Positions 20,013-46,002 of a DNA stretch of 64,000 nucleotides are shown piece after piece. The DNA is from Flagellimonas chongwuensis (GTDB lineage Bacteria > Bacteroidota > Bacteroidia > Flavobacteriales > Flavobacteriaceae). The stretch's first letter is position 1, and the number at the start of each line of letters is the position of its first letter. Made by a program: the position numbers and the translations under genes. The notes beneath the pieces were generated by a model, which made no database searches, was not told the DNA's origin, and saw nothing but the letters and a program-made list of their open reading frames with translations. Location of the stretch: the NCBI RefSeq assembly GCF_013376415.1, contig NZ_WYET01000001.1, positions 310,001 to 374,000 of the forward strand, written 5' to 3'.

Positions 20013-21545
20013 TTATACCGTAAGTTTAGGCAGGTTCATAATTACCGTTGTTCCCAGTGCCTTTCCAGTTTCTTCGTCTTTTATATCGTAAATGGTATAG
20101 CTGAAATCCTCGTGGTATTTTTTGGAAAAAAAATCCAATCTATCCTGAACGATGGTCAATCCCAAGGATTGCCCCTTCAAGGGATTTTGGCGGTTTTTAA
20201 GACGGGATGCTTCCCGCCCAACACCGTTATCCTCAACGATAACCGTAAGACAACCCCCTTCATCGGTTTCTTGGACTTTAATGACCAACTGTTTTTTGCC
20301 TTTTTTTGTGGTAAGTCCGTGCCAAATGGAATTTTCCACAAAGGGTTGAAGTATGAGGGAGGGAATTAAAATATCATCTGGAGCTATTCCTTCATCAATT
20401 TCAGCATTGTACTCAATGTTGTTTTTGAATCGGTCACTTTCAATTTCTGTGTACATTTCAATAATGTCCAACTCCTCTTTTAAGGTCACAAGGTCTTTTC
20501 TTGAACTTTCCAAGATGCCGCGTATCAGTTTGGAGAACCTGCCCAGATAATAAATGGCCTTCTCTTGGTCGTTTTCTATTAGATAGGATTTAATGGAATT
20601 GAGCGCGTTGAAAATAAAATGAGGGTTCATTTGACTTCGTAAAGCATCGAGCTTGAGCTGTGCGAACCTATTTTCCATTTTCATGGTAAGTTTTTCGGTC
20701 CGCTCCCTTTGGGCCTCCGAACTAAGACCCTCTATTTCTGCTTTGGTCTGTAAGAGCTCATCCGATAGGGTTCGGTTGATACTCTCCTTGATCACTTGGT
20801 TTTCCTCCAATTGCTCAATATATTTTTTCTGTACATGGGCCTTATCCCTGTAGACCATTTTTTGCTCCAGTCCGATGGCCAGGGCAAACAATAAGCTTTC
20901 AAGCAGTACACCAAGATAAAAGATGTACAATGTTTCGTCGCTGGCCCTACTTTCTTCAAAAGAATACAGGGTGATGATAAGATACGAAACAAAAAGCGCC
21001 GACATGCCCGAGAGAATATACCACTTGATGATACGGTCTTGTTTGAGAACCAAATAGAACCCTCCCACAAAAACGATCAGGCTCATGGGCAAAAAGAAGA
21101 ATCCATGGAAATAATCGATTAAATAAGACCTGGGATTCATCAATTGGACGGCCCATAAGACCAAATATAACGGCGCGACCCCCAAATAGGCCCGGTATGC
21201 CCATTTAACAAATTTTGGATGGTCGTTCTTGAGCTGCATGATATCCAGGACAAAAAAGCTGAACAGCATAGAGGCAAACAATTGTGTGGGGTAATGAACC
21301 CAGGCTACAAAGCCTCTTCCGGAAGGACTATGAAAAAAGTCCGAAAAAAAGACACCTTCCACATATTTCATCAACGTAACGCCGGTAACCAAGGCATATA
21401 GGGAGTAAAAAAGGTAAAACCGCTTCTTGTGCTGAAAAAACTGAATCAGAAAGAAAACAAAAAGATAGAACAGTACGGAAACCACAAGGAACCCAAATCC
21501 ATTCTGGTTACTTTCCTTGAAAAAGTCTGTCAAATTTTTCAGCAT
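20013..21545 (-). CDS. LytS-type sensor histidine kinase with seven-helix membrane sensor
   Basis: The 510-residue kinase begins with about seven membrane helices (residues about 10-240) of the 7TM-DISM type, then a coiled coil (about 245-290) and a His_kinase (LytS/YehU) domain. The phospho-acceptor His lies in SQMNPHFIFNALNS at about 310. The ATPase domain has the N-box QPFVENSIWHGL and the G-box VIVEDNGVGRE, so it is intact. It is the partner of the LytTR regulator whose gene ends 9 bases upstream. The signal is unknown. Confidence 0.9.
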   Translation of the reverse strand: MLKNLTDFFKESNQNGFGFLVVSVLFYLFVFFLIQFFQHKKRFYLFYSLYALVTGVTLMKYVEGVFFSDFFHSPSGRGFVAWVHYPTQLFASMLFSFFVLDIMQLKNDHPKFVKWAYRAYLGVAPLYLVLWAVQLMNPRSYLIDYFHGFFFLPMSLIVFVGGFYLVLKQDRIIKWYILSGMSALFVSYLIITLYSFEESRASDETLYIFYLGVLLESLLFALAIGLEQKMVYRDKAHVQKKYIEQLEENQVIKESINRTLSDELLQTKAEIEGLSSEAQRERTEKLTMKMENRFAQLKLDALRSQMNPHFIFNALNSIKSYLIENDQEKAIYYLGRFSKLIRGILESSRKDLVTLKEELDIIEMYTEIESDRFKNNIEYNAEIDEGIAPDDILIPSLILQPFVENSIWHGLTTKKGKKQLVIKVQETDEGGCLTVIVEDNGVGREASRLKNRQNPLKGQSLGLTIVQDRLDFFSKKYHEDFSYTIYDIKDEETGKALGTTVIMNLPKLTV

Positions 21546-21554
21546 AAAGTCATC

Positions 21555-22289
21555 TTAGCTCATCTTGTTTAAAAAAGCCTCTTTTTTGGTTCTAGAAACG
21601 GGTATTTTCTTTTGGTTCAACAATACCAAATATCCATCGGACCGTAAATACTCCTTCACCTTGAGCAAATGAACAATATAGGAATTATGTACCCTGAAGA
21701 ACATTCGGTTGGGAAGCATGTCCTCCAGCTCCTTCAATTTTTTTGATACCAACAACTCTTCTCCCGATTCCAAAAAGGTTTTTGAATAATTCCCATCCGA
21801 TTCGCAATACACGATTTCGTTCACACGCAGGAACAAGATTTTTCCACTTACAGGAATCTGAACAATCTGTGGTGAACTTGCCCGGGAAAGGGCTTCAAAA
21901 GTCTGTTCAAATTGGTGTTTAAAATTTTGTGCACCGTTCAATTTTTTCAGCTTTTCCACAACGCCCAAAATATCATCTTGATCTACCGGTTTCAAAAGGT
22001 AATCCACCGCACTCTCTTTAATTGCCCTGATGGCATATTGATTGTACGCTGTAGTGATTACAACGGCGAAGTTGCGGTATTCCAATTTTTCCAAAAGGGA
22101 AAACCCGCTCATTTCGGGCATTTCAATATCCAAAAAAACGCAATCGGGCTTTAAATAGTTGATTCCAGATATGGCCTCTACCGGGGAGGTAAACGTTTCA
22201 ATGATCGAGATAAAGTCCGAGTGTTTTCTCAATTCCCAAGAAAGGCTATTGATGGCAGCCAACTCGTCATCCACAATAATTACCCTCAT
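21555..22289 (-). CDS. LytTR-family response regulator
   Basis: The 244-residue protein combines a receiver domain and a LytTR DNA-binding domain. The phospho-acceptor is Asp54 in DCVFLDIEMPEMSG, with acidic residues in VDDEL at 7-9 and Lys100 in DYLLKPVD. The LytTR domain runs from about 140 to the end with YCESDGNYSKTF and FFRVHNSYIVHL. The frame is open to 22340, but MRVIIVDDE at 22289 is the family start. LytTR domains bind paired direct repeats 21 bases apart, such as those at 1022-1051. It is co-transcribed with the kinase gene downstream. Confidence 0.92.
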   Translation of the reverse strand: MRVIIVDDELAAINSLSWELRKHSDFISIIETFTSPVEAISGINYLKPDCVFLDIEMPEMSGFSLLEKLEYRNFAVVITTAYNQYAIRAIKESAVDYLLKPVDQDDILGVVEKLKKLNGAQNFKHQFEQTFEALSRASSPQIVQIPVSGKILFLRVNEIVYCESDGNYSKTFLESGEELLVSKKLKELEDMLPNRMFFRVHNSYIVHLLKVKEYLRSDGYLVLLNQKKIPVSRTKKEAFLNKMS

Positions 22290-22543
22290 GATGGTTTCTT
22301 CTTTGTTCCAAATTATAACTTGAATCGTTATAAAACCCACCTATAGTGATGTTTAACATAAAATGGTGTATAAGATGCATATATGCTGTACAGATGGTAA
22401 AACTTACCTAAAAAAGAATGTAATACTCCATCGGTAACAGAAAACCATCGATCAGCATAATCATACATACATATAGTAAGGAGCGAGTTCTTGAGCTGGT
22501 CAATCCATTCTAATTTGCCAGTTGAAACCCAAAAAATTTAAAC

Positions 22544-37044: not shown

Positions 37045-37261
37045 AAAATTAAAGGGAGAGTAAATTAAAAGGGCCGCGAAGGCCCCCTTAATCCATTACC
37101 GTTTTCATAGCTGAATTTTCTTCCTCATAGCAATTGCGAGCCCTAAATGGCCCTATGGAGATGAGTTAGTGTCCTTAAGATGTATTGTTATTAAAAAGGT
37201 TGCGTGCCCTTTTTTTCATGTGGAAAGAAATGGTATTTTAGCCTTCCTAACAATTTTTACC

Positions 37262-38269
37262 ATGAGCAAAGAGAAAGAAGCAAAATTAAAAGCCCTAAAA
37301 CTTACGTTGGACAAGTTGGACAAAACCTACGGTAAAGGTGCTGTTATGAAAATGGGCGATAGCGTTGTTGAAGATGTAGAAGTAATTCCTTCTGGCTCTT
37401 TGGGATTGGATATTGCCCTCGGCGTTGGAGGTTATCCCAAAGGAAGAGTGGTTGAAATATATGGTCCGGAATCTTCCGGTAAAACCACATTGACATTGCA
37501 CGCCATTGCAGAAGCCCAAAAAGCGGGTGGAATCGCTGCCTTTATCGATGCAGAGCACGCGTTTGACCGTTTCTACGCAAAAAAATTAGGGGTAGATATT
37601 GATAACTTGATCATTTCCCAGCCCGATCATGGAGAGCAGGCATTGGAAATTGCAGATAACCTAATACGTTCCGGGGCCATCGATATCGTAATCGTGGATT
37701 CCGTTGCGGCATTGACACCTAAAAGTGAAATCGAGGGAGAAATGGGGGATTCCAAAATGGGATTGCATGCCCGTTTGATGTCCCAAGCTTTGCGAAAACT
37801 GACCTCTACCATCAGTAAAACAAAATGTACCGTAATATTTATCAACCAGTTGAGGGAAAAAATCGGCGTAATGTTCGGTAATCCCGAAACCACAACCGGT
37901 GGTAACGCACTTAAGTTCTATGCTTCCGTCCGACTGGACATTAGACGCTCCACTCAAATTAAAAGTACCGATGGTGATGTTCAAGGGAACAAGACCAGGG
38001 TAAAAGTGGTAAAAAACAAAGTCGCCCCTCCGTTCAAAACCGCAGAGTTTGATATTATGTACGGAGAGGGAATCTCTAAAATCGGGGAAATACTCGACTT
38101 GGGGGTTGCCTATGAAATCGTAAAGAAAAGTGGTTCTTGGTTCAGTTATGGCGACACCAAACTGGGTCAGGGAAGAGATGCCGTAAAAGCGCTTCTTGTG
38201 GACAACCCAGAGCTATCCGAAGAATTGGAAAGCAAAATTAAGGAAGCCATAACCGCCTTAAGCGAATAA
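37262..38269 (+). CDS. recA: Recombinase RecA
   Basis: RecA performs homologous strand exchange and activates the SOS response. The 335-residue form starting at the ATG 37262 (MSKEKEAK) is chosen; the frame is open to 37169, but those residues are not family-like. The Walker A motif is GPESSGKT at 68-75, and the DNA-binding loops follow with [21 protein letters not shown] and [22 protein letters not shown] in parts. It stands alone; no SOS box could be assigned. Confidence 0.97.
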
Positions 38270-38368
38270 ACCTTTTATCGATTTTTTGGGGAGTTTAACT
38301 TTTGGTTGTGAAAATCCTACGCAACCCCTACGCATACTGCACATCTAGGGAATAAAAGGATTTTTATT

Positions 38369-38812
38369 ATGAAAAAAGTGTTAATGCCCTTTATGTTAAT
38401 TGTGGCATGCTCATGGTTCATCTCTTGTGAGGTGGATGATGATTCCCCCAATTTTTACTTTACTGCCCTTACTACCGTGGAGGCCGAAGTTCCAGAGTCG
38501 TTCGAGTTTGGAAAAACTTACGATATTGAAGTAACCTACCTAAGACCTAATGGTTGTACATTTTTTGAAGGTTTCGATGTGTCGCAAACAGCAGAAACGG
38601 GTCGTGATGTCGTAGTGGTCGGTTCCGTGCTTACCGATGAGGACAGGGCCTGCACCGAAGCTGTGGAAGAAGTAGTGGCCACCTTAAAATTTAATGTAAT
38701 TTACACCAAGGACTACACCTTCCGTTTTTACGCCGGGGATGATGAAGAAGGAAATGCTAAATTTTTAGAATACACGGTTCCGATTGCGGAAGAAGGTGAA
38801 CCGACAAATTAA
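38369..38812 (+). CDS. Small surface lipoprotein of unknown function
   Basis: The 147-residue product has a lipoprotein signal peptide with lipobox WFISC (Cys at about 20) followed by EVDDD, the acidic pattern of surface-exposed lipoproteins. The mature part is beta-rich with two cysteines (in NGCTFFEG and DRACTEAV) that may form a disulfide. It is not recognised as a named family. It lies 28 bases before the ECF sigma gene and may be in one operon with it. Confidence 0.75.
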   Translation: MKKVLMPFMLIVACSWFISCEVDDDSPNFYFTALTTVEAEVPESFEFGKTYDIEVTYLRPNGCTFFEGFDVSQTAETGRDVVVVGSVLTDEDRACTEAVEEVVATLKFNVIYTKDYTFRFYAGDDEEGNAKFLEYTVPIAEEGEPTN

Positions 38813-38840
38813 ATAGCAACAATCCAAAATTGACCAACAT

Positions 38841-39371
38841 TTGGATCTTGAAGAATTGATACATAACTGTCAAAAGGGTAACCGACAGGCACAGGCTGAA
38901 CTATACCGGAGATATTCCAGTATTCTTTTCGGTATGTGCCTGAAGTACTCCCGTAACAAAACGGAGGCGGAAGATAGTCTGCACGACAGTTTTATGACCA
39001 TATTCGACAAAATTGACCAATACGGTTTTAAAGGCTCTTTTGAAGGTTGGATCAAAAGGATAACCGTAAATACGGTTCTTCAAAAGTATAGGAAAGACCA
39101 ACACCTCAACGTGGTTTCGGAAAATACCGAGGATGAGGAGGAGGTAGATACAGAAGATACGGATATAAGCCTCTCTACCCTTTTGGGATACATTCAAGAG
39201 CTACCGCACAAGTATAGGTTAACTTTTAACCTATACGTGTTGGACGGTTACAGTCACAAGGAAATCAGTGAGATGTTGGGGACATCCACTGGAACATCAA
39301 AATCGAATTTGGCAAGGGCCAAGGCCATTTTGAGGGAAAAAATAGAAAAAGCCAAAATAAACATTGCTTAA
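38841..39371 (+). CDS. ECF-type RNA polymerase sigma factor
   Basis: The 176-residue protein has the two conserved sigma regions: sigma2 (about 20-90, with SRNKTEAEDSLHDSFMTIF and FEGWIKRITVN) and sigma4 (about 110-170, with GYSHKEISEMLGTSTGTSKSNLARA). The start codon is TTG at 38841; no ATG occurs nearby in frame. The next gene, 12 bases downstream, carries a membrane segment and is a likely anti-sigma partner. The target genes are unknown. Confidence 0.9.
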   Translation: MDLEELIHNCQKGNRQAQAELYRRYSSILFGMCLKYSRNKTEAEDSLHDSFMTIFDKIDQYGFKGSFEGWIKRITVNTVLQKYRKDQHLNVVSENTEDEEEVDTEDTDISLSTLLGYIQELPHKYRLTFNLYVLDGYSHKEISEMLGTSTGTSKSNLARAKAILREKIEKAKINIA

Positions 39372-39382
39372 ATAGAAAGACA

Positions 39383-40834
39383 ATGGGGAAAAAGAATTTA
39401 GAGCAATTGTTCAAAGAAAGCTTTCAGGACTTTCAAGAAGTTCCGGACGAAAAGGTCTGGGCCTCTATCGAAGCTTCTTTGGACAACAAAAAACAAAAGA
39501 AGCGGGCCGTTCCTATTTGGTGGGGCCTCGGCGGTGCGGCGGCGGCTTTGATCATAGCTTTGCTGGCCATTAATCCATTTGGAGAAGAACAGGAGCAGAT
39601 TATTACCGATGTCGAAAACATCTCAGTTCCTGAAAATCAAACAAATTCAAAAGAAAAGATAAATCGAGATTTTATTCCTCCAACTACTAACCAAAATGAG
39701 CAAAATGGTTTAGCAAATACTTCTGACAAAAACACCTTGAATCAAAAGGAAAATCAAGCAGAAGAGAACGGTTTTGCCAAAACCAAGGCTTCAAGTAGCA
39801 CTGGAAATAATTTTTCCATATCAAACCAAAAGGGTTCACAATTGGCTCAAATCGATAAGAACCGTGCGCCAAAGGATGAAAAACTTTCTCAGGATAAAGA
39901 AGCGATGAAAAAGAACAACAGTGCCATCGTGATGAATATCGATGAGGAGGAATCTGCCAAAAGAAAAACAACTTTATCAACCAAAAAGAACGAAGATCAG
40001 GTTGCTGAAAACACTACAGAAAAAGACGTAACAGAGAAGCAGTCCATTTACGATGCCATTGCGGAGCAGGAACAATTGGAGGAAGCGGTTGCAAAAAACA
40101 ACTCTGGAAAATGGTCGGTTGGTCCATCTTTGGCTCCCGTCTATTTTAATGGTGCCGGCGATGGGTCGCCCGTTGGAGCGGATTTTGCCACCAACTCCAA
40201 AACGGGGAACCTCAACTTGAGTTATGGCGTAAATGTGGCCTATGAGGTTGGCAAAAAAGTAAAGATACGTTCAGGGGTGCACCGAGTAAACTTTGGTTAC
40301 AACACCAATGATGTGGTCTTTTCCTCTACCCTACAGGCAGCGGCGAGCAATAGGATAGCGAACATAGATTATGATCAAAACTCCGAGACCATACTGGTCC
40401 AGAGCAAGGAAAGTGCAAAGAATTCCCCTGTGTTGGGTGCCAAAGAAGTTGCTTTTAATGAAGTACCTAGCTTGGAAGGTAAAATGGTCCAACAATTGGG
40501 CTATATCGAAGTTCCGCTGGAAGTAAACTATGCCCTACTCGACAAAAAATTCGGGGTTGACCTAATAGGGGGTGTAAGCTCATTGTTCCTTGTAGACAAT
40601 TCCGTTTTGTTGGAATCCAACGAACTGGTCACCGAAATGGGAGAGGCCAACAACATTAACTCATTAAACTTTAGTGCAAACTTTGGTATGGGGCTCAACT
40701 ATCATTTTACCCCAAAATTCAGGTTCAATGTGGAACCTGTGTTCAAGTACCAGCTAAATACGTTTTCGAATGTTTCCGGTAATTTTCAGCCCTACTCCAT
40801 TGGGGTGTACAGCGGATTTACCTTTAAGTTTTAG
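39383..40834 (+). CDS. Membrane-anchored putative anti-sigma protein with a C-terminal beta-barrel
   Basis: The 483-residue protein has a short cytoplasmic N-terminus (LFKESFQDFQEVPDEKVWASIE), one membrane helix (about 44-63), a long charged, low-complexity linker (about 70-230) and a C-terminal outer-membrane-barrel-like domain (about 240-483; WSVGPSLAPVYFNG ... YSIGVYSGFTFKF). No cysteine zinc motif of classic anti-sigma factors is seen. It follows the ECF sigma gene by 12 bases, so an envelope-spanning anti-sigma role is plausible. A terminator follows at 40878-40913. Confidence 0.75.
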   Translation: MGKKNLEQLFKESFQDFQEVPDEKVWASIEASLDNKKQKKRAVPIWWGLGGAAAALIIALLAINPFGEEQEQIITDVENISVPENQTNSKEKINRDFIPPTTNQNEQNGLANTSDKNTLNQKENQAEENGFAKTKASSSTGNNFSISNQKGSQLAQIDKNRAPKDEKLSQDKEAMKKNNSAIVMNIDEEESAKRKTTLSTKKNEDQVAENTTEKDVTEKQSIYDAIAEQEQLEEAVAKNNSGKWSVGPSLAPVYFNGAGDGSPVGADFATNSKTGNLNLSYGVNVAYEVGKKVKIRSGVHRVNFGYNTNDVVFSSTLQAAASNRIANIDYDQNSETILVQSKESAKNSPVLGAKEVAFNEVPSLEGKMVQQLGYIEVPLEVNYALLDKKFGVDLIGGVSSLFLVDNSVLLESNELVTEMGEANNINSLNFSANFGMGLNYHFTPKFRFNVEPVFKYQLNTFSNVSGNFQPYSIGVYSGFTFKF

Positions 40835-40955: not shown

Positions 40956-42857
40956 ATGAAAAAGAACATGTTGGCTTCCTTATCCAAGGCTTTATTGATT
41001 TTTTGCCCCATCCTACTGGTAGCAAACAATTTATTGGGTCAACAGCAACAACTAGAAAGCCCTAGCAAAGAGCAACTCACCTTTAAAGTATTTCCAACAA
41101 AGGATTCTCGAATGACCTTTGAAGAGGCTTACGGCAATTTGAACAAATTTTTACCGAAGGAACAAATTCACTATAAGACCCATCCTGATGAGACCTATTG
41201 GGTTATGCTCGATTTTGAGAAGCTGGAGCAATCCTTATCAAAAAATGAAAAATACTTTTTAACGTTAAACTGCTTTGATTACGGTCATGTTTATTACCAA
41301 AAAAATGGGCGCGTATTTAATGAACCTATAGGGCAGTTCAATAAAAATACCCTAAGCAACAAAACAAGCTCTTCCATATATCACTGCGAAATCCCAATTC
41401 CCGAAAATGCTCTAATCAACAATCGCTTTCTGTTTTTGCAGGTAAAGCGTATAAAGTTTATAGAATCCATCAACAATTGGACATTCTGCTTAAAACAGAG
41501 TTCCAATCAAAATTCCTACACCTGGAACAACATAAAATTGTCGATACCCACTTTTATCTACATGGGTGTTGGTTTTATTATGAGCATAGCCATGCTGATT
41601 TTTTATATCTACTTTGGAAAAATTGAGTTCTTGTTGTATTCCCTTTTTGTTTTGTCCATTATAATCTATCTGTTCCATGGGGAGTTGATCTTACCTGAAA
41701 GACTCCAACTGAACAATTCTTTTATCATAAGTTGGCTTTGGGATACCAATGCCATAATTCTGGGAATACTCTACCTAATGTTTGCTCTATTTTATCTTAA
41801 CTTAAAAAAAGAGTACCCCCGAACCTATGTCTTTATCAAAATTGGGATATATGCACACGTACTTCTTTTGATAACAGATCTCTTTTTTTTCGCATTTAGG
41901 TATCATCTAGGACATATCTATCTTTTACAAGTATTAAGGGTCGTTTCGTTTTTGATAACCATTTCCTTTTTGATTTACTTGTTCATTTACAATAAGAACA
42001 GGATAAGTACAATTTTCCTGATTGGCGGAAGCAGTTATATGATAAGTATTTTCATCTATTACTACATTAACTTAGGTTCCGATTCCGACCCCATGCTTTA
42101 TGGAAATTCTTTGGTGTTGATCATTGGCTCGATCCTCGAAATAATATTTTTTGCCTACGGCCTTACCTACAAGGCATTCAACGAATACCTTAAGCGTATT
42201 TATTTTGAACAAGAGGCCATTACCAATGAGAACAAGGCGCTCCGAGCACAAATAAACCCTCATTTTATCTTTAACGCCCTTGGGTCCATTCAGCATCTTA
42301 TCCTTAAAAAGAAGAACGACAGTGCACTAAACTATTTGACCAAATTTAGCCGCATGGCGAGAAATGCCTTAGAAGCATCCGTAGAGGGTACCGGCACACT
42401 GGATGAAGAAATTGAAATGTTGAACGATTATTTGGAACTTGAATCCCTTCGCTTTGACAATGCGTTTTCATACAGTGTAGATATAGATGGGCAACTGGAC
42501 ACTTCCGAAATAGAAATACCATTTATGATTTCGCAACCCTTTGTAGAAAATGCGATCATACATGGTTTACTGCCAAAAACTTCGGGCCAAAAAGAGCTGA
42601 CCATAACCATGAAAGAGGAAGAAGGTTCGTTAAAAATCATAATCGATGATACCGGTGTAGGAAGACATCGGGACAATGAAACCAAAATAACATATCCCAA
42701 TCAAAGAAAATCAAGAGGGCTCGATGTAACGATCAAGAGACTGGAGTCATGGCATTTTGGCTCGGGAAAGGTAGAAATAGTGGACAAATTGGATAACCAA
42801 AGTAAGTCAATGGGTACCAAGGTCATTATTTCCATTCCATTGGAACAATACCAGTAA
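40956..42857 (+). CDS. LytS-type histidine kinase with 7TMR-DISM sensor
   Basis: The 633-residue kinase has a signal peptide, a periplasmic beta-rich domain of the 7TMR-DISM type (about 35-185), about seven membrane helices (about 195-405) and a LytS-type kinase domain. The phospho-acceptor His lies in RAQINPHFIFNALGS at about 430, and the ATPase domain keeps the N-box QPFVENAIIHGLLPK and G-box IIDDTGVGRH. It is a close paralog of the kinase at 44137-46002. No response regulator follows. Confidence 0.88.
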   Translation: MKKNMLASLSKALLIFCPILLVANNLLGQQQQLESPSKEQLTFKVFPTKDSRMTFEEAYGNLNKFLPKEQIHYKTHPDETYWVMLDFEKLEQSLSKNEKYFLTLNCFDYGHVYYQKNGRVFNEPIGQFNKNTLSNKTSSSIYHCEIPIPENALINNRFLFLQVKRIKFIESINNWTFCLKQSSNQNSYTWNNIKLSIPTFIYMGVGFIMSIAMLIFYIYFGKIEFLLYSLFVLSIIIYLFHGELILPERLQLNNSFIISWLWDTNAIILGILYLMFALFYLNLKKEYPRTYVFIKIGIYAHVLLLITDLFFFAFRYHLGHIYLLQVLRVVSFLITISFLIYLFIYNKNRISTIFLIGGSSYMISIFIYYYINLGSDSDPMLYGNSLVLIIGSILEIIFFAYGLTYKAFNEYLKRIYFEQEAITNENKALRAQINPHFIFNALGSIQHLILKKKNDSALNYLTKFSRMARNALEASVEGTGTLDEEIEMLNDYLELESLRFDNAFSYSVDIDGQLDTSEIEIPFMISQPFVENAIIHGLLPKTSGQKELTITMKEEEGSLKIIIDDTGVGRHRDNETKITYPNQRKSRGLDVTIKRLESWHFGSGKVEIVDKLDNQSKSMGTKVIISIPLEQYQ

Positions 42858-42971: not shown

Positions 42972-44132
42972 GTGAACTCTGAACAGTTTGAAGACATTCT
43001 CATATACTTTTCCAAATCCTTGATGGGAAAAGAAAATGAAGAAGACATCCTTTGGGATCTGGCCAAAAACTGCATCTCTAAACTGGGGTTTGTGGACTGT
43101 GTTATTTATTTGGTCGATCAAAACAGACAATTGCTTGTTCAGAAAGCCGCTTATGGACCCAAGAATCCTAAGGATAAGGCATTGTACAATCCTGTTTCCA
43201 TTTCCATGGGCGAAGGCATTACGGGAAATGTTGCAAAAACGAGAAGGGCAGCATTGATTCCGGATACATCAAAGGACCCTAGGTATATTGAGGACGATGC
43301 CAATAGACTCTCGGAAATATGCGTTCCCATTGTGCACGAAAACCATCTTTATGGAGTGATTGATTGTGAGCACCCCGAAAAATGCTATTTTAATGAACGG
43401 CATTTAAAAATGCTTTCCGCCATAGCTTCTATCTGTGCCATAAAGATCAAAAGTGTTAGGGCCGGCCAAGAAGTGCTCAAAAAGCAAGAAAAACTTTTAA
43501 AAATCCGAGAAGAGATGCTAGAACTCAAAGTATTGGCACTCAACTCACAGCTCAACCCCCATTTTTTGTTCAACTCACTGAACGCAATCCAATATTTTGT
43601 TACTTCCGAAAAGAAAAAACTGGCACTGGAATACCTGTCCACTTTCAGTAGACTCATACGGTTCTATTTAAGGCAATTGGGGAACGATACCGTTTCACTC
43701 TATAACGAGATTGATATGCTGCACTGGTATCTTAAGCTTCAAAAACTACGGTACGATGATTCCTTTGACTACGTAATCGCCATGGAAAAAAGCTCCGAAA
43801 CACTCCAAGAAGCCATAATACCTTCATTTGTTACCCACACCCTTTTTGAAAATATAATCGAACGTTCCATGTTCAACCAAAAAAAAGGGCAACACTTTAA
43901 AATAAGCTTTAGATCCACCAACTCAGAAGTTGTACTGGTAATTCAATATCAGGAATTTGATTCAAAAAACACTACGCCACCAGAATATCGGGCACGCATA
44001 TTAAAATGGCAAGATCAAATCAAGTTGCTCAATACGGCAAAAGGGTACAATATTAAAAATGAAAGCAAAATCCATAAAATAGGGGAAAGATGGATTGGCA
44101 ACATAACACTTACTCTCCCCAATTTAAGATAG
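42972..44132 (+). CDS. GAF-domain LytS-type protein with degenerate ATPase (likely pseudokinase)
   Basis: The 386-residue soluble protein starts at GTG 42972 and has a GAF sensor domain (about 10-155) followed by a His_kinase segment with the intact acceptor motif SQLNPHFLFNSLNA at about 195. The ATPase part is degraded: the N-box reads HTLFENIIERSMFNQ, where the neighbours have ENAIIHG, and no DxGxG G-box is present in the last 100 residues. It is therefore probably unable to bind ATP, but could be phosphorylated in trans by a neighbouring kinase. The next kinase gene starts 4 bases after its stop. Confidence 0.8.
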   Translation: MNSEQFEDILIYFSKSLMGKENEEDILWDLAKNCISKLGFVDCVIYLVDQNRQLLVQKAAYGPKNPKDKALYNPVSISMGEGITGNVAKTRRAALIPDTSKDPRYIEDDANRLSEICVPIVHENHLYGVIDCEHPEKCYFNERHLKMLSAIASICAIKIKSVRAGQEVLKKQEKLLKIREEMLELKVLALNSQLNPHFLFNSLNAIQYFVTSEKKKLALEYLSTFSRLIRFYLRQLGNDTVSLYNEIDMLHWYLKLQKLRYDDSFDYVIAMEKSSETLQEAIIPSFVTHTLFENIIERSMFNQKKGQHFKISFRSTNSEVVLVIQYQEFDSKNTTPPEYRARILKWQDQIKLLNTAKGYNIKNESKIHKIGERWIGNITLTLPNLR

Positions 44133-44136
44133 CTAC

Positions 44137-46002
44137 ATGAAATTTTACGTGAAGTTTATTTTATCCTTTTTAGCCGTTTTTCCCGCTAATAATCTTTTCT
44201 CCCAAAACCTTGAAAGTTCCTTTTTTAAAAAAGAGATAGGTTTTAAAATTCTAAAAACACAAACTGATACGACCTATAGTGATTTCCTGACCAAGAAAAG
44301 TCAGTTGGTAAAACCCGAAGAAATATCGGAAAAAACTTCCCCTGAGGATACCTATTGGATTCAGTTGGACTTGTATGATCATGTATCAAACCGTTCCAAT
44401 GACAATTACTTTTACCTGACCTTCAACTCATTTGATCATGCCACCATATATCTGGAATCACAAAATAAAATGGTTTCTAAAAAAATAGGCAAGTTTGACA
44501 AAAACAATGAGAGCAGCCAAGTAAATCATTCGTATTACGACTCATTTTTAAAGTTGAGAAAGAGCAATTTGCTCGATAATGAGCATCTATTAATAAAAGC
44601 AAAGCGAATTAGCTTTAAGGAGGATGTCCAGAATTGGGGCTTTACCATTAGCAATGCCTCGCCCAATGCATTTGTTTCGCAAAAGGATTATAAGGACCAA
44701 CTCCCCTACTATTTCTTTACAGGGCTTTGTTTTATCATGTGTTTTACCACATTGTCCTTTTACTTCTTCATCAAAAAATCAGAATTTTTGTGGTACTCCA
44801 TTTACATTGTGGTGACCTTTGTGTATGTGTGCGGACTTAAGTTTGGCATATACGAGTTCATCTTTAACAATAACTACATCTCCTACTGGGTTTCCCAGAG
44901 TTTCTTGTTTGTGGACAACATTGTGTATCTGTTCTTTTTTGCAAGTTTTCTTCAATCTAAAAAAGAATACCCATTTGTTCATTTTTTGGTACAAGTGCTT
45001 GTGGTTCTGAACAGTATAATCCTTATATGTATTGGTGTTTTGTTTGCGCTAGGCGACACCATAGGTTTTATCTTTATTACACAAAACGCCTATGCTATAC
45101 TTAACTTTACCGCACTTATTGGCCTGGCCTATCTCATGTATGTGGGCAAAGATCCTTTGGCCTATGTAATGGCCTTGGCCACATCTGCCTATTGTGCCGC
45201 TCCTTTGATTAGAACATTTTATTCGACCCCTGAAGATGGATTACTGCTGGATGGGCTTTACTATATAATTATTGGTTGTTCTATTGAGATGGTCATATTT
45301 GCATTCGGTCTTTTTTATAAAATCCATTTGGAATTCCGCGAAAACCTGATGCTCCAGCAAAGAGCTCTTTTTGAAAAAACAAGAGCGCTACGGGCCCAAA
45401 TAAATCCACATTTTATTTTTAACTCATTAAGCGCGATTCAACATCTGGTGTCCGTGAAAAAAATCGAAAGTGCTTTAAAATATTTGAACAAGTTCAGTCG
45501 GCTTACCCGAAATGTTCTGGAAAGCTCCATGGAAATCAACATTCTTTTATCGGAAGAAATAAAAATGCTCGAAGACTACTTGTCGTTGGAATTGTTGAGG
45601 TTCGACAACAGTTTTTCCTATATAATTACCATGGACGAAGGTCTTGATCCCGGCGAAATAGAGATTCCTTCTATGATTTTACAGCCCTTTGTAGAAAATG
45701 CATTGATACATGGACTGCTGCCAAAAAAATCCGGAACAAAACAACTCCATATTAGTTTTACGAAAGATAATCATGATCTAATATGTATCGTGGATGACAC
45801 CGGAGTAGGCCGTTTGGCTGCAAAGGATAGGCTTCATATCTATCAGAATGAAAAAAAATCAAGGGGACTGGAGGTTACCAAACTACGATTGCAATCATTA
45901 GGCAAAAACAAAGATTCCATTACCATAGTGGACAAATATGATGATTACAATCATCCAGAGGGAACAAAAGTTATCGTTCGTATTCCCCTAAAAATCCTCT
46001 AA
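44137..46002 (+). CDS. LytS-type histidine kinase with 7TMR-DISM sensor (second copy)
   Basis: The 621-residue kinase has the same layout as the one at 40956: signal peptide, DISM-type periplasmic domain, seven membrane helices and a LytS kinase domain. The acceptor is in RAQINPHFIFNSLSA at about 425; the N-box is QPFVENALIHGLLPK and the G-box is IVDDTGVGRL, so it looks active. It is preceded by the pseudokinase by 4 bases and overlaps plsC convergently by 4 bases. No partner response regulator is seen in this cluster. Confidence 0.88.
   Translation: MKFYVKFILSFLAVFPANNLFSQNLESSFFKKEIGFKILKTQTDTTYSDFLTKKSQLVKPEEISEKTSPEDTYWIQLDLYDHVSNRSNDNYFYLTFNSFDHATIYLESQNKMVSKKIGKFDKNNESSQVNHSYYDSFLKLRKSNLLDNEHLLIKAKRISFKEDVQNWGFTISNASPNAFVSQKDYKDQLPYYFFTGLCFIMCFTTLSFYFFIKKSEFLWYSIYIVVTFVYVCGLKFGIYEFIFNNNYISYWVSQSFLFVDNIVYLFFFASFLQSKKEYPFVHFLVQVLVVLNSIILICIGVLFALGDTIGFIFITQNAYAILNFTALIGLAYLMYVGKDPLAYVMALATSAYCAAPLIRTFYSTPEDGLLLDGLYYIIIGCSIEMVIFAFGLFYKIHLEFRENLMLQQRALFEKTRALRAQINPHFIFNSLSAIQHLVSVKKIESALKYLNKFSRLTRNVLESSMEINILLSEEIKMLEDYLSLELLRFDNSFSYIITMDEGLDPGEIEIPSMILQPFVENALIHGLLPKKSGTKQLHISFTKDNHDLICIVDDTGVGRLAAKDRLHIYQNEKKSRGLEVTKLRLQSLGKNKDSITIVDKYDDYNHPEGTKVIVRIPLKIL

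Follow-up and report, generated by a model that had tools for sequence, protein, structure and literature searches.

A putative GAF-domain histidine pseudokinase of the LytS family that keeps its phosphoacceptor histidine in Flagellimonas/Muricauda and in other genera

The LytS/LytTR systems, such as BtsS/BtsR, YpdA/YpdB, LytSR and AlgZR, share the PF06580 domain with its NPHF-type motif. To our knowledge, few histidine pseudokinases are known; RetS from Pseudomonas aeruginosa, which is related to histidine kinases, is believed to work through interaction with another kinase and has an architecture different from that of the protein described here. AlgZ (FimS) from P. aeruginosa is reported to have an H box and no identifiable G1, F, and G2 boxes and is treated as the putative kinase of AlgR (PMC4064291). 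The LytS-type kinase BtsS, whose boxes are unusual, is reported to show its best autophosphorylation with Mn-ATP (PMC10653868), and DivL from Caulobacter is presented as a functional pseudokinase that retains the kinase fold (PMC4211667). Within the parts of the open-access PMC literature that we covered, no paper combined LytS, pseudokinase and histidine kinase, none contained the term "histidine pseudokinase," and, among the listed titles and opening lines of abstracts, no soluble GAF pseudokinase was found as a third LytS component.

Here we analyzed a window (the whole stretch of 64,000 nucleotides under study) that carries, on the + strand, the gene of a putative histidine pseudokinase, hereafter PK (42972 to 44132; GTG start, 386 amino acids, stop codon at 44130 to 44132). 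Its product matches Pfam GAF_2 (1.8e-15) and His_kinase PF06580 (1.1e-20), the latter with 74.1 bits against a curated cut-off of 25.2 and with the NPHF motif present; judged by its sequence, PK is by descent a member of the LytS-type (PF06580) histidine kinase family. The GAF domain (residues 22 to 159; 43035 to 43448, +) is supported both by Pfam and by a fold match to solved GAF domains. It is followed by the DHp or phosphoacceptor domain (residues 176 to 262; 43497 to 43757, +), which is assigned by Pfam, is the most constrained part of PK and contains the predicted phosphoacceptor His197 (codon 43560 to 43562, +). The C-terminal part is a degenerate CA domain (residues 280 to 386; 43809 to 44129, +) with a predicted kinase-type fold and without ATP lid, G1, G2 and GT, and within it lies an altered N-box, ENIIERS (residues 293 to 299; 43848 to 43868, +), whose Glu297 is specific to the family (61/62 orthologues). 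Pfam found no HATPase_c domain in PK at E≤1. This absence by itself does not prove a dead CA domain, since two homologues with intact boxes (L134 and L136) also lack a match at E≤1.

PK is flanked on the same strand by two LytS-type kinase genes of the 7TMR-DISM kind, one encoding 633 amino acids and ending 114 bp before PK (40956 to 42857), the other encoding 621 amino acids (44137 to 46002) and starting, as the first-pass annotation had observed, 4 bases past the PK stop codon. In Pfam, both match 7TMR-DISM_7TM and His_kinase and, at a score under its cut-off, HATPase_c, and both indeed keep the boxes ascribed to them: NPHF, ENAIIHG or ENALIHG, and DDTGVG. Ahead of these genes lies a block (37169 to 40834, +) that is conserved in most species of Flagellimonas/Muricauda and contains what we take, by eye, to be recA, a lipoprotein gene, an ECF sigma factor gene and the gene of a membrane or barrel-like protein; plsC, trpS and dprA are presumptive names given in the same way. 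A tight operon of PK with the upstream ECF sigma/membrane gene was considered but found no support, the gap being mostly larger than 100 bp (with uncertain starts). No LytTR regulator gene adjoins PK in the window; the orthologous regulator of the window species is found on the same contig at a distance of about 345 kb (G000:C2:7034-7780, with PK at 352972).

The proposal that PK is a pseudokinase with an intact phosphoacceptor started from three observations in the first-pass annotation, all of which were borne out: the acceptor motif SQLNPHFLFNSLNA, containing NPHF and His197, is present, the N-box has lost its HG and reads ENIIERS, and no DxGxG box occurs in the sequence. Alignment with LytS kinases, scored for ATP-binding residues, showed that the losses go further than had been described, in that the G2 box, the ATP lid and the final GT are also gone; PK thus lacks HG, G1, lid, G2 and GT. 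Neither HG nor DxGxG was found in any of the 62 aligned PK orthologues, while the phosphoacceptor His, HG and DxGxG all scored positive in 50 of the 52 full-length related kinases, the two failures being a kinase with an HG variant (L117, Arg for His) and one for which the pattern was too strict (L126). When scored by aligned column, these kinases hold the G1 Asp, the G1 Gly and the G2 Gly in 52/52 cases each, HG in 51/52, and each of the two residues of the final GT in 50/52. Within the N-box of the 62 orthologues, the first two residues are largely retained (E in 59, N in 61); ten sequences still have the His and two the Gly, but none has both. More remote members replace even the N-box Asn, by Ser in L132 and by Glu in L297, and retain the equivalent of Glu297.

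The missing DxGxG box had been offered as part of the evidence; the box is absent, but its absence alone is not diagnostic. Of 12 LytS proteins found in the same genome, nine besides PK were inspected, and four of these nine (L001, L002, L004 and L008), ordinary LytS proteins, lack DxGxG as well and still have an N-box of the type EN..xH and a GLxN G2 box. The G1 box thus seems to be dispensable as a marker of the family, and we rejected its absence alone as proof of a pseudokinase. The pseudokinase argument nevertheless holds, because HG, lid, G2 and GT are lost jointly and not G1 alone. The boxes are missing from PK as they are reported to be from AlgZ (PMC4064291); AlgZ is considered to be the kinase for AlgR, whereas PK has a GAF domain and, in the gene clusters described below, an intact kinase alongside.

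Could the G box have been overlooked because of an unusual fold? The AlphaFold model of full-length PK has a mean pLDDT of 83.7. Since GAF matches filled the best rows of the fold search with the whole model, the DHp-CA part was also predicted alone (mean pLDDT 81.2), the region of the former lid being of low confidence. Among the fold matches of this model are GanS (6swk, kinase domain; Z 14.0, rmsd 4.7, 171 aligned residues), many CA domains at Z of about 11 (e.g., 3a0y; Z 11.4, rmsd 2.8, 123 aligned residues) and the RetS structure 6dk7. The predicted CA fold is therefore of the usual kind, so that the boxes appear to be truly absent rather than missed. For the GAF domain, the nearest among the matches listed is the GAF domain of PtsP (3trc, Z 23.2), and the model also resembles the free methionine sulfoxide reductases 3mmh and 3ksf. 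With a predicted kinase fold that is kept, catalytic residues that are lost and sequences that point to purifying selection, PK would fit the pseudokinase class, and sequence, predicted fold and the conservation of 62 orthologues all lend good support to its assignment as a histidine pseudokinase.

These 62 orthologues comprise 54 from Flagellimonas/Muricauda and 8 from other genera; the PK of G040, broken copies, the GAF-less L123, and L132, L297 and L298 were left out of the alignment. Pro196, His197, Phe198, Gln257 and Arg260 are invariant in 62/62 sequences, whereas Asn195 is replaced by His in five. Two positions set PK apart from its relatives: residue 257 (43740 to 43742) is Gln in 62/62 PKs but Glu in 52/52 related kinases, and residue 297 is Glu in 61/62 PKs but I, L or V in 52/52 related kinases. 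Residue 257 corresponds to the Glu position of the LxLExLRF stretch in the DHp domain. In the GAF domain, Cys34 and Cys132 are invariant across the 62 PKs, but Cys132 gives way to Ser in the more remote L298, and the homologues with intact boxes have Ser or Ala at this position. The median pairwise dN/dS was lowest for the DHp domain (0.028, 35 pairs), followed by GAF (0.053, 49 pairs) and CA (0.093, 43 pairs), and for the DHp domain it was 0.035 among PKs from species without a detected homologue of the window kinases (9 pairs; 22 of 23 such species aligned). His197 is kept in all 27 aligned PKs that were scored without an intact kinase in an ORF-based table and in 22/22 aligned PKs from species without such a kinase genome-wide. 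These comparisons indicate that the phosphoacceptor His and the DHp domain of PK are under strong purifying selection and that PK is a selected family and not a product of decay. In this respect PK differs from DivL, which is reported to have Tyr at the phosphoacceptor position and PAS domains (PMC4211667): DivL has also lost the His, whereas the PK family has a GAF domain and keeps the His in 62/62 sequences with the ATP site gone.

To describe the gene neighborhoods outside the window, we use K for a LytS-type homologue of the window's 7TM kinases and RR for a LytTR response regulator; K outside the window and RR outside the window's genome were named by BLAST similarity, to the window kinases and the cassette regulators respectively, and not by Pfam, and the genes in the fetched stretches are longest-ORF calls with uncertain starts. 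A sample of 397 genomes from the family yielded eight genomes outside the genus with full-length PK and one with a GAF-less form. In all nine of these Flavobacteriaceae loci (L115 to L123), PK forms a block with K and a LytTR gene, all three on one strand, in the order PK-K-RR in eight and PK-RR-K in one (L117). Aequorivita aquimaris is a Flavobacteriaceae species that carries the PK-K-LytTR cassette. Spacing is tight, with -4 to +3 bp between PK and the next gene in the nine loci and -8 to +14 bp between K and RR in the eight PK-K-RR loci. A sample of 395 genomes from the class added two PK-K-RR loci from another family: L297, with distances of +4 bp (PK-K) and -4 bp (K-RR), and L298, with a larger PK-K overlap (its start is uncertain) and 105 bp between K and RR. 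Hence, every complete locus outside the genus (11/11, from two families) is a same-strand cluster of PK, K and RR, and in 10 of the 11 the distance from PK to the next gene is -4 to +4 bp. In L132, from a Saprospiraceae MAG, the contig ends early and the gene overlapping PK has no detectable similarity to K. The GAF-less PK of L123 (also L054; 226 amino acids) sits in an otherwise standard PK-K-LytTR cassette. The cassette resembles known LytS/LytTR systems in having a LytS kinase and a LytTR regulator, and differs from them by the additional gene of a soluble GAF pseudokinase before the kinase gene.

Relatives with an intact ATP site suggest where PK came from. Seven GAF-LytS kinases (L133 to L139) from Larkinella, Ferruginibacter, Dyadobacter and Bacteroidota MAGs share the GAF-DHp unit of PK at 34 to 36% identity over the aligned region but have intact ATP boxes, with HG and DNGIG or DNGVG. 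A LytTR gene comes next in 6/7, and 5/7 are proteins of about 1200 amino acids with large N-terminal parts. Most simply, PK would have arisen from a GAF-LytS kinase of this kind.

In Flagellimonas/Muricauda, the picture is more scattered. Of the 71 genus genomes, 66 match PK at 1e-30, some of them only to its GAF part. In the ORF-based table, PK is intact in 55, apparently broken in three (G016, G024 and G027, where assembly errors are possible) and missing from 13; one genome (G048, 75% complete) has neither a PK match nor a recA match and was left out of the species tree together with G028 and G065. In most species of the genus, PK has the recA/ECF sigma genes on one side and plsC/trpS on the other. 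K at the PK locus, defined as adjoining PK or just beyond plsC, is intact in 13 of the 55 species that have an intact PK, split or truncated in two and absent from 40, and some species keep K or remnants of it at the locus without PK. The boxes are intact in the kinases of both G036 and G063. Genome-wide, neither flanking kinase had a match at E≤1e-60 in 23 of the 55 PK species, a search in which at most 18 or 17 candidates were scored per genome and one genome (G055) is 79% complete. An obligate pairing of PK with adjacent kinases was rejected on the basis of synteny.

RR, counted as present when an ORF of at least 230 amino acids was more than 50% identical, sits apart from PK in the genus and is 56 to 66% identical to the query from L119. 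It is found in 52/71 genomes, in 24 of which it lies behind an intact kinase of a second type: in a tree of the kinases (midpoint rooting), the K genes of the PK locus group with the K genes of the cassettes, and the kinases of the RR locus form the second group. In the window species, two K genes flank PK, and the regulator has no intact kinase ahead of it. The receiver domain of RR has the phosphorylatable Asp, the Thr and the Lys in 54/55 rows, the remaining row being a fragment, and the acidic pair near its start is missing in 3/55. RR occurs in 44/55 PK species versus 8/16 without PK (Fisher p 0.026, kinship ignored; 45/55 and p 0.019 when a second copy in G061 is counted), so PK and RR are weakly associated. 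There are 11 PK species without an RR of at least 230 amino acids (10 with the second copy of G061). Among the 23 PK species without detected K, RR is found in 16, in two of them only in part (G003 and G013, where the match begins only at residue 34 to 36), and is absent from seven. Of the 31 RR loci that lack an intact kinase, seven have kinase remnants ahead of the orphan regulator; none was found ahead of the regulator of the window species. At L251, L252, L257, L259 and other loci, the kinase before an intact-looking LytTR gene survives only as remnants or has given way to a gap that can reach about 1100 bp, and such kinase loss leaves an orphan regulator in many species.

How might a protein with an invariant phosphoacceptor and a degenerate ATP site be used? 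On balance we lean, with some reservation, toward the reading that PK is a GAF-sensing pseudokinase of a LytS/LytTR system whose His197 is phosphorylated in trans. Trans-phosphorylation is plausible and probably the likeliest use of the kept His; it is the simplest reading because the His is invariant without an ATP site, and the three proteins are linked because PK, kinase and LytTR genes are clustered in other genera. PK would then be a cytosolic, GAF-sensing third component of the K/RR two-component system, with an active LytS kinase (ancestrally K) phosphorylating His197 in trans, either as a hetero-oligomer or as a relay, and an internal GAF signal that might gate, or add to, the flow that the membrane sensor directs to the LytTR regulator. 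While the GAF domain itself is supported by Pfam and by its fold, the role given to it by the first-pass annotation, that PK brings in the GAF-bound signal, is a reasonable inference. In Flagellimonas/Muricauda, the parts of this system would have become separated in the genome. Phosphorylation specifically by a neighbor, as had been proposed from the window, did not hold as a general rule, given the 40/55 PK species without K at the locus and the 23 without K genome-wide; because PK persists where K was not found, the neighbors are not obligatory. In sister species with PK, often together with RR, in which no K was found, PK may either be served by other LytS kinases or act without phosphorylation as a DivL-like adaptor. 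The same counts weigh against trans-phosphorylation by K itself, as do the weak association of PK with RR and the 11 PK species without a full-length RR. Moreover, non-canonical boxes need not deprive a LytS-type kinase of activity, as is reported for BtsS (PMC10653868), and His197 could be kept for a purpose other than phosphorylation.

This last point leads to a less probable alternative, in which PK is a non-phosphorylated adaptor that, like DivL, uses its DHp domain to bind either K or the (phosphorylated) regulator and switches their activity by conformation, with His197 unphosphorylated or kept merely for phosphatase or docking geometry. DivL provides the precedent, being described as lacking kinase and phosphatase activity and yet binding DivK~P by means of its docking surface (PMC4211667). 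An adaptor would also be consistent with the retention of PK in the 23 species without K, 16 of them with RR at least in part, and with a CA domain that is still under purifying selection (dN/dS 0.093) and carries, like the DHp domain, a family-specific residue (E297 and Q257, respectively), as if repurposed. Against it stand the invariance of H197 in 62/62 sequences, where DivL has Tyr, and the DHp domain as the most constrained part of the protein.

Considerably less probable is that PK is an active but atypical kinase whose binding of ATP or some other nucleotide is non-canonical, as has been proposed for AlgZ (PMC4064291). The Glu and Asn of the N-box, kept in most orthologues, the retained CA fold of the model and the several DxGxG-less LytS proteins of the same genome could be read in its favor. 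However, HG, G1, lid, G2 and GT are lost together in comparison with the homologues that have intact boxes, even the N-box Asn is replaced in L132 (Ser) and L297 (Glu), and the four DxGxG-less proteins retain the N-box His and the GLxN G2 box. Finally, it is very improbable that the CA domain is merely eroding in a decaying gene, since, despite the three broken-looking copies and the 13/71 genomes without PK at the locus or a match, PK is intact in 55/71 genus genomes and found in other genera and another family, all of its domains having median dN/dS values far below 1 and the losses being the same throughout.

Going beyond trans-phosphorylation as such, it is tempting to speculate that PK defines a three-component LytS system and that, where K was lost, it serves as an autonomous phosphoacceptor hub fed by other LytS kinases and is maintained by selection for that reason; we regard this as doubtful. 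If it were true, PK would rewire several membrane sensors onto one regulator under the control of the GAF domain. The family has relatives with intact boxes and an other-genus cluster that names the likely partners, and in Flagellimonas/Muricauda these partners are often missing while PK stays. These features make it possible to test whether a bacterial pseudokinase acts as a trans-phosphorylated receiver or as an unphosphorylated adaptor, and also how well LytS pathways are insulated from each other.

Three further observations concern related proteins. In other Flavobacteriaceae, proteins of about 300 amino acids (L047 to L053) have an N-terminal part that is 42 to 49% identical to PK and are without a full pseudokinase part, and two of them (L127 and L128) lie in another gene context. 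A diverged protein from G061 (L274; 335 amino acids, 30% identical) keeps the His without HG or DxGxG, is encoded next to another LytTR gene and may belong to the ordinary LytS proteins that lack DxGxG. The window itself also holds an ordinary pair on the - strand (20013 to 22340), consisting of a LytS-type kinase of 510 amino acids with intact boxes and a LytTR regulator of 261 amino acids.
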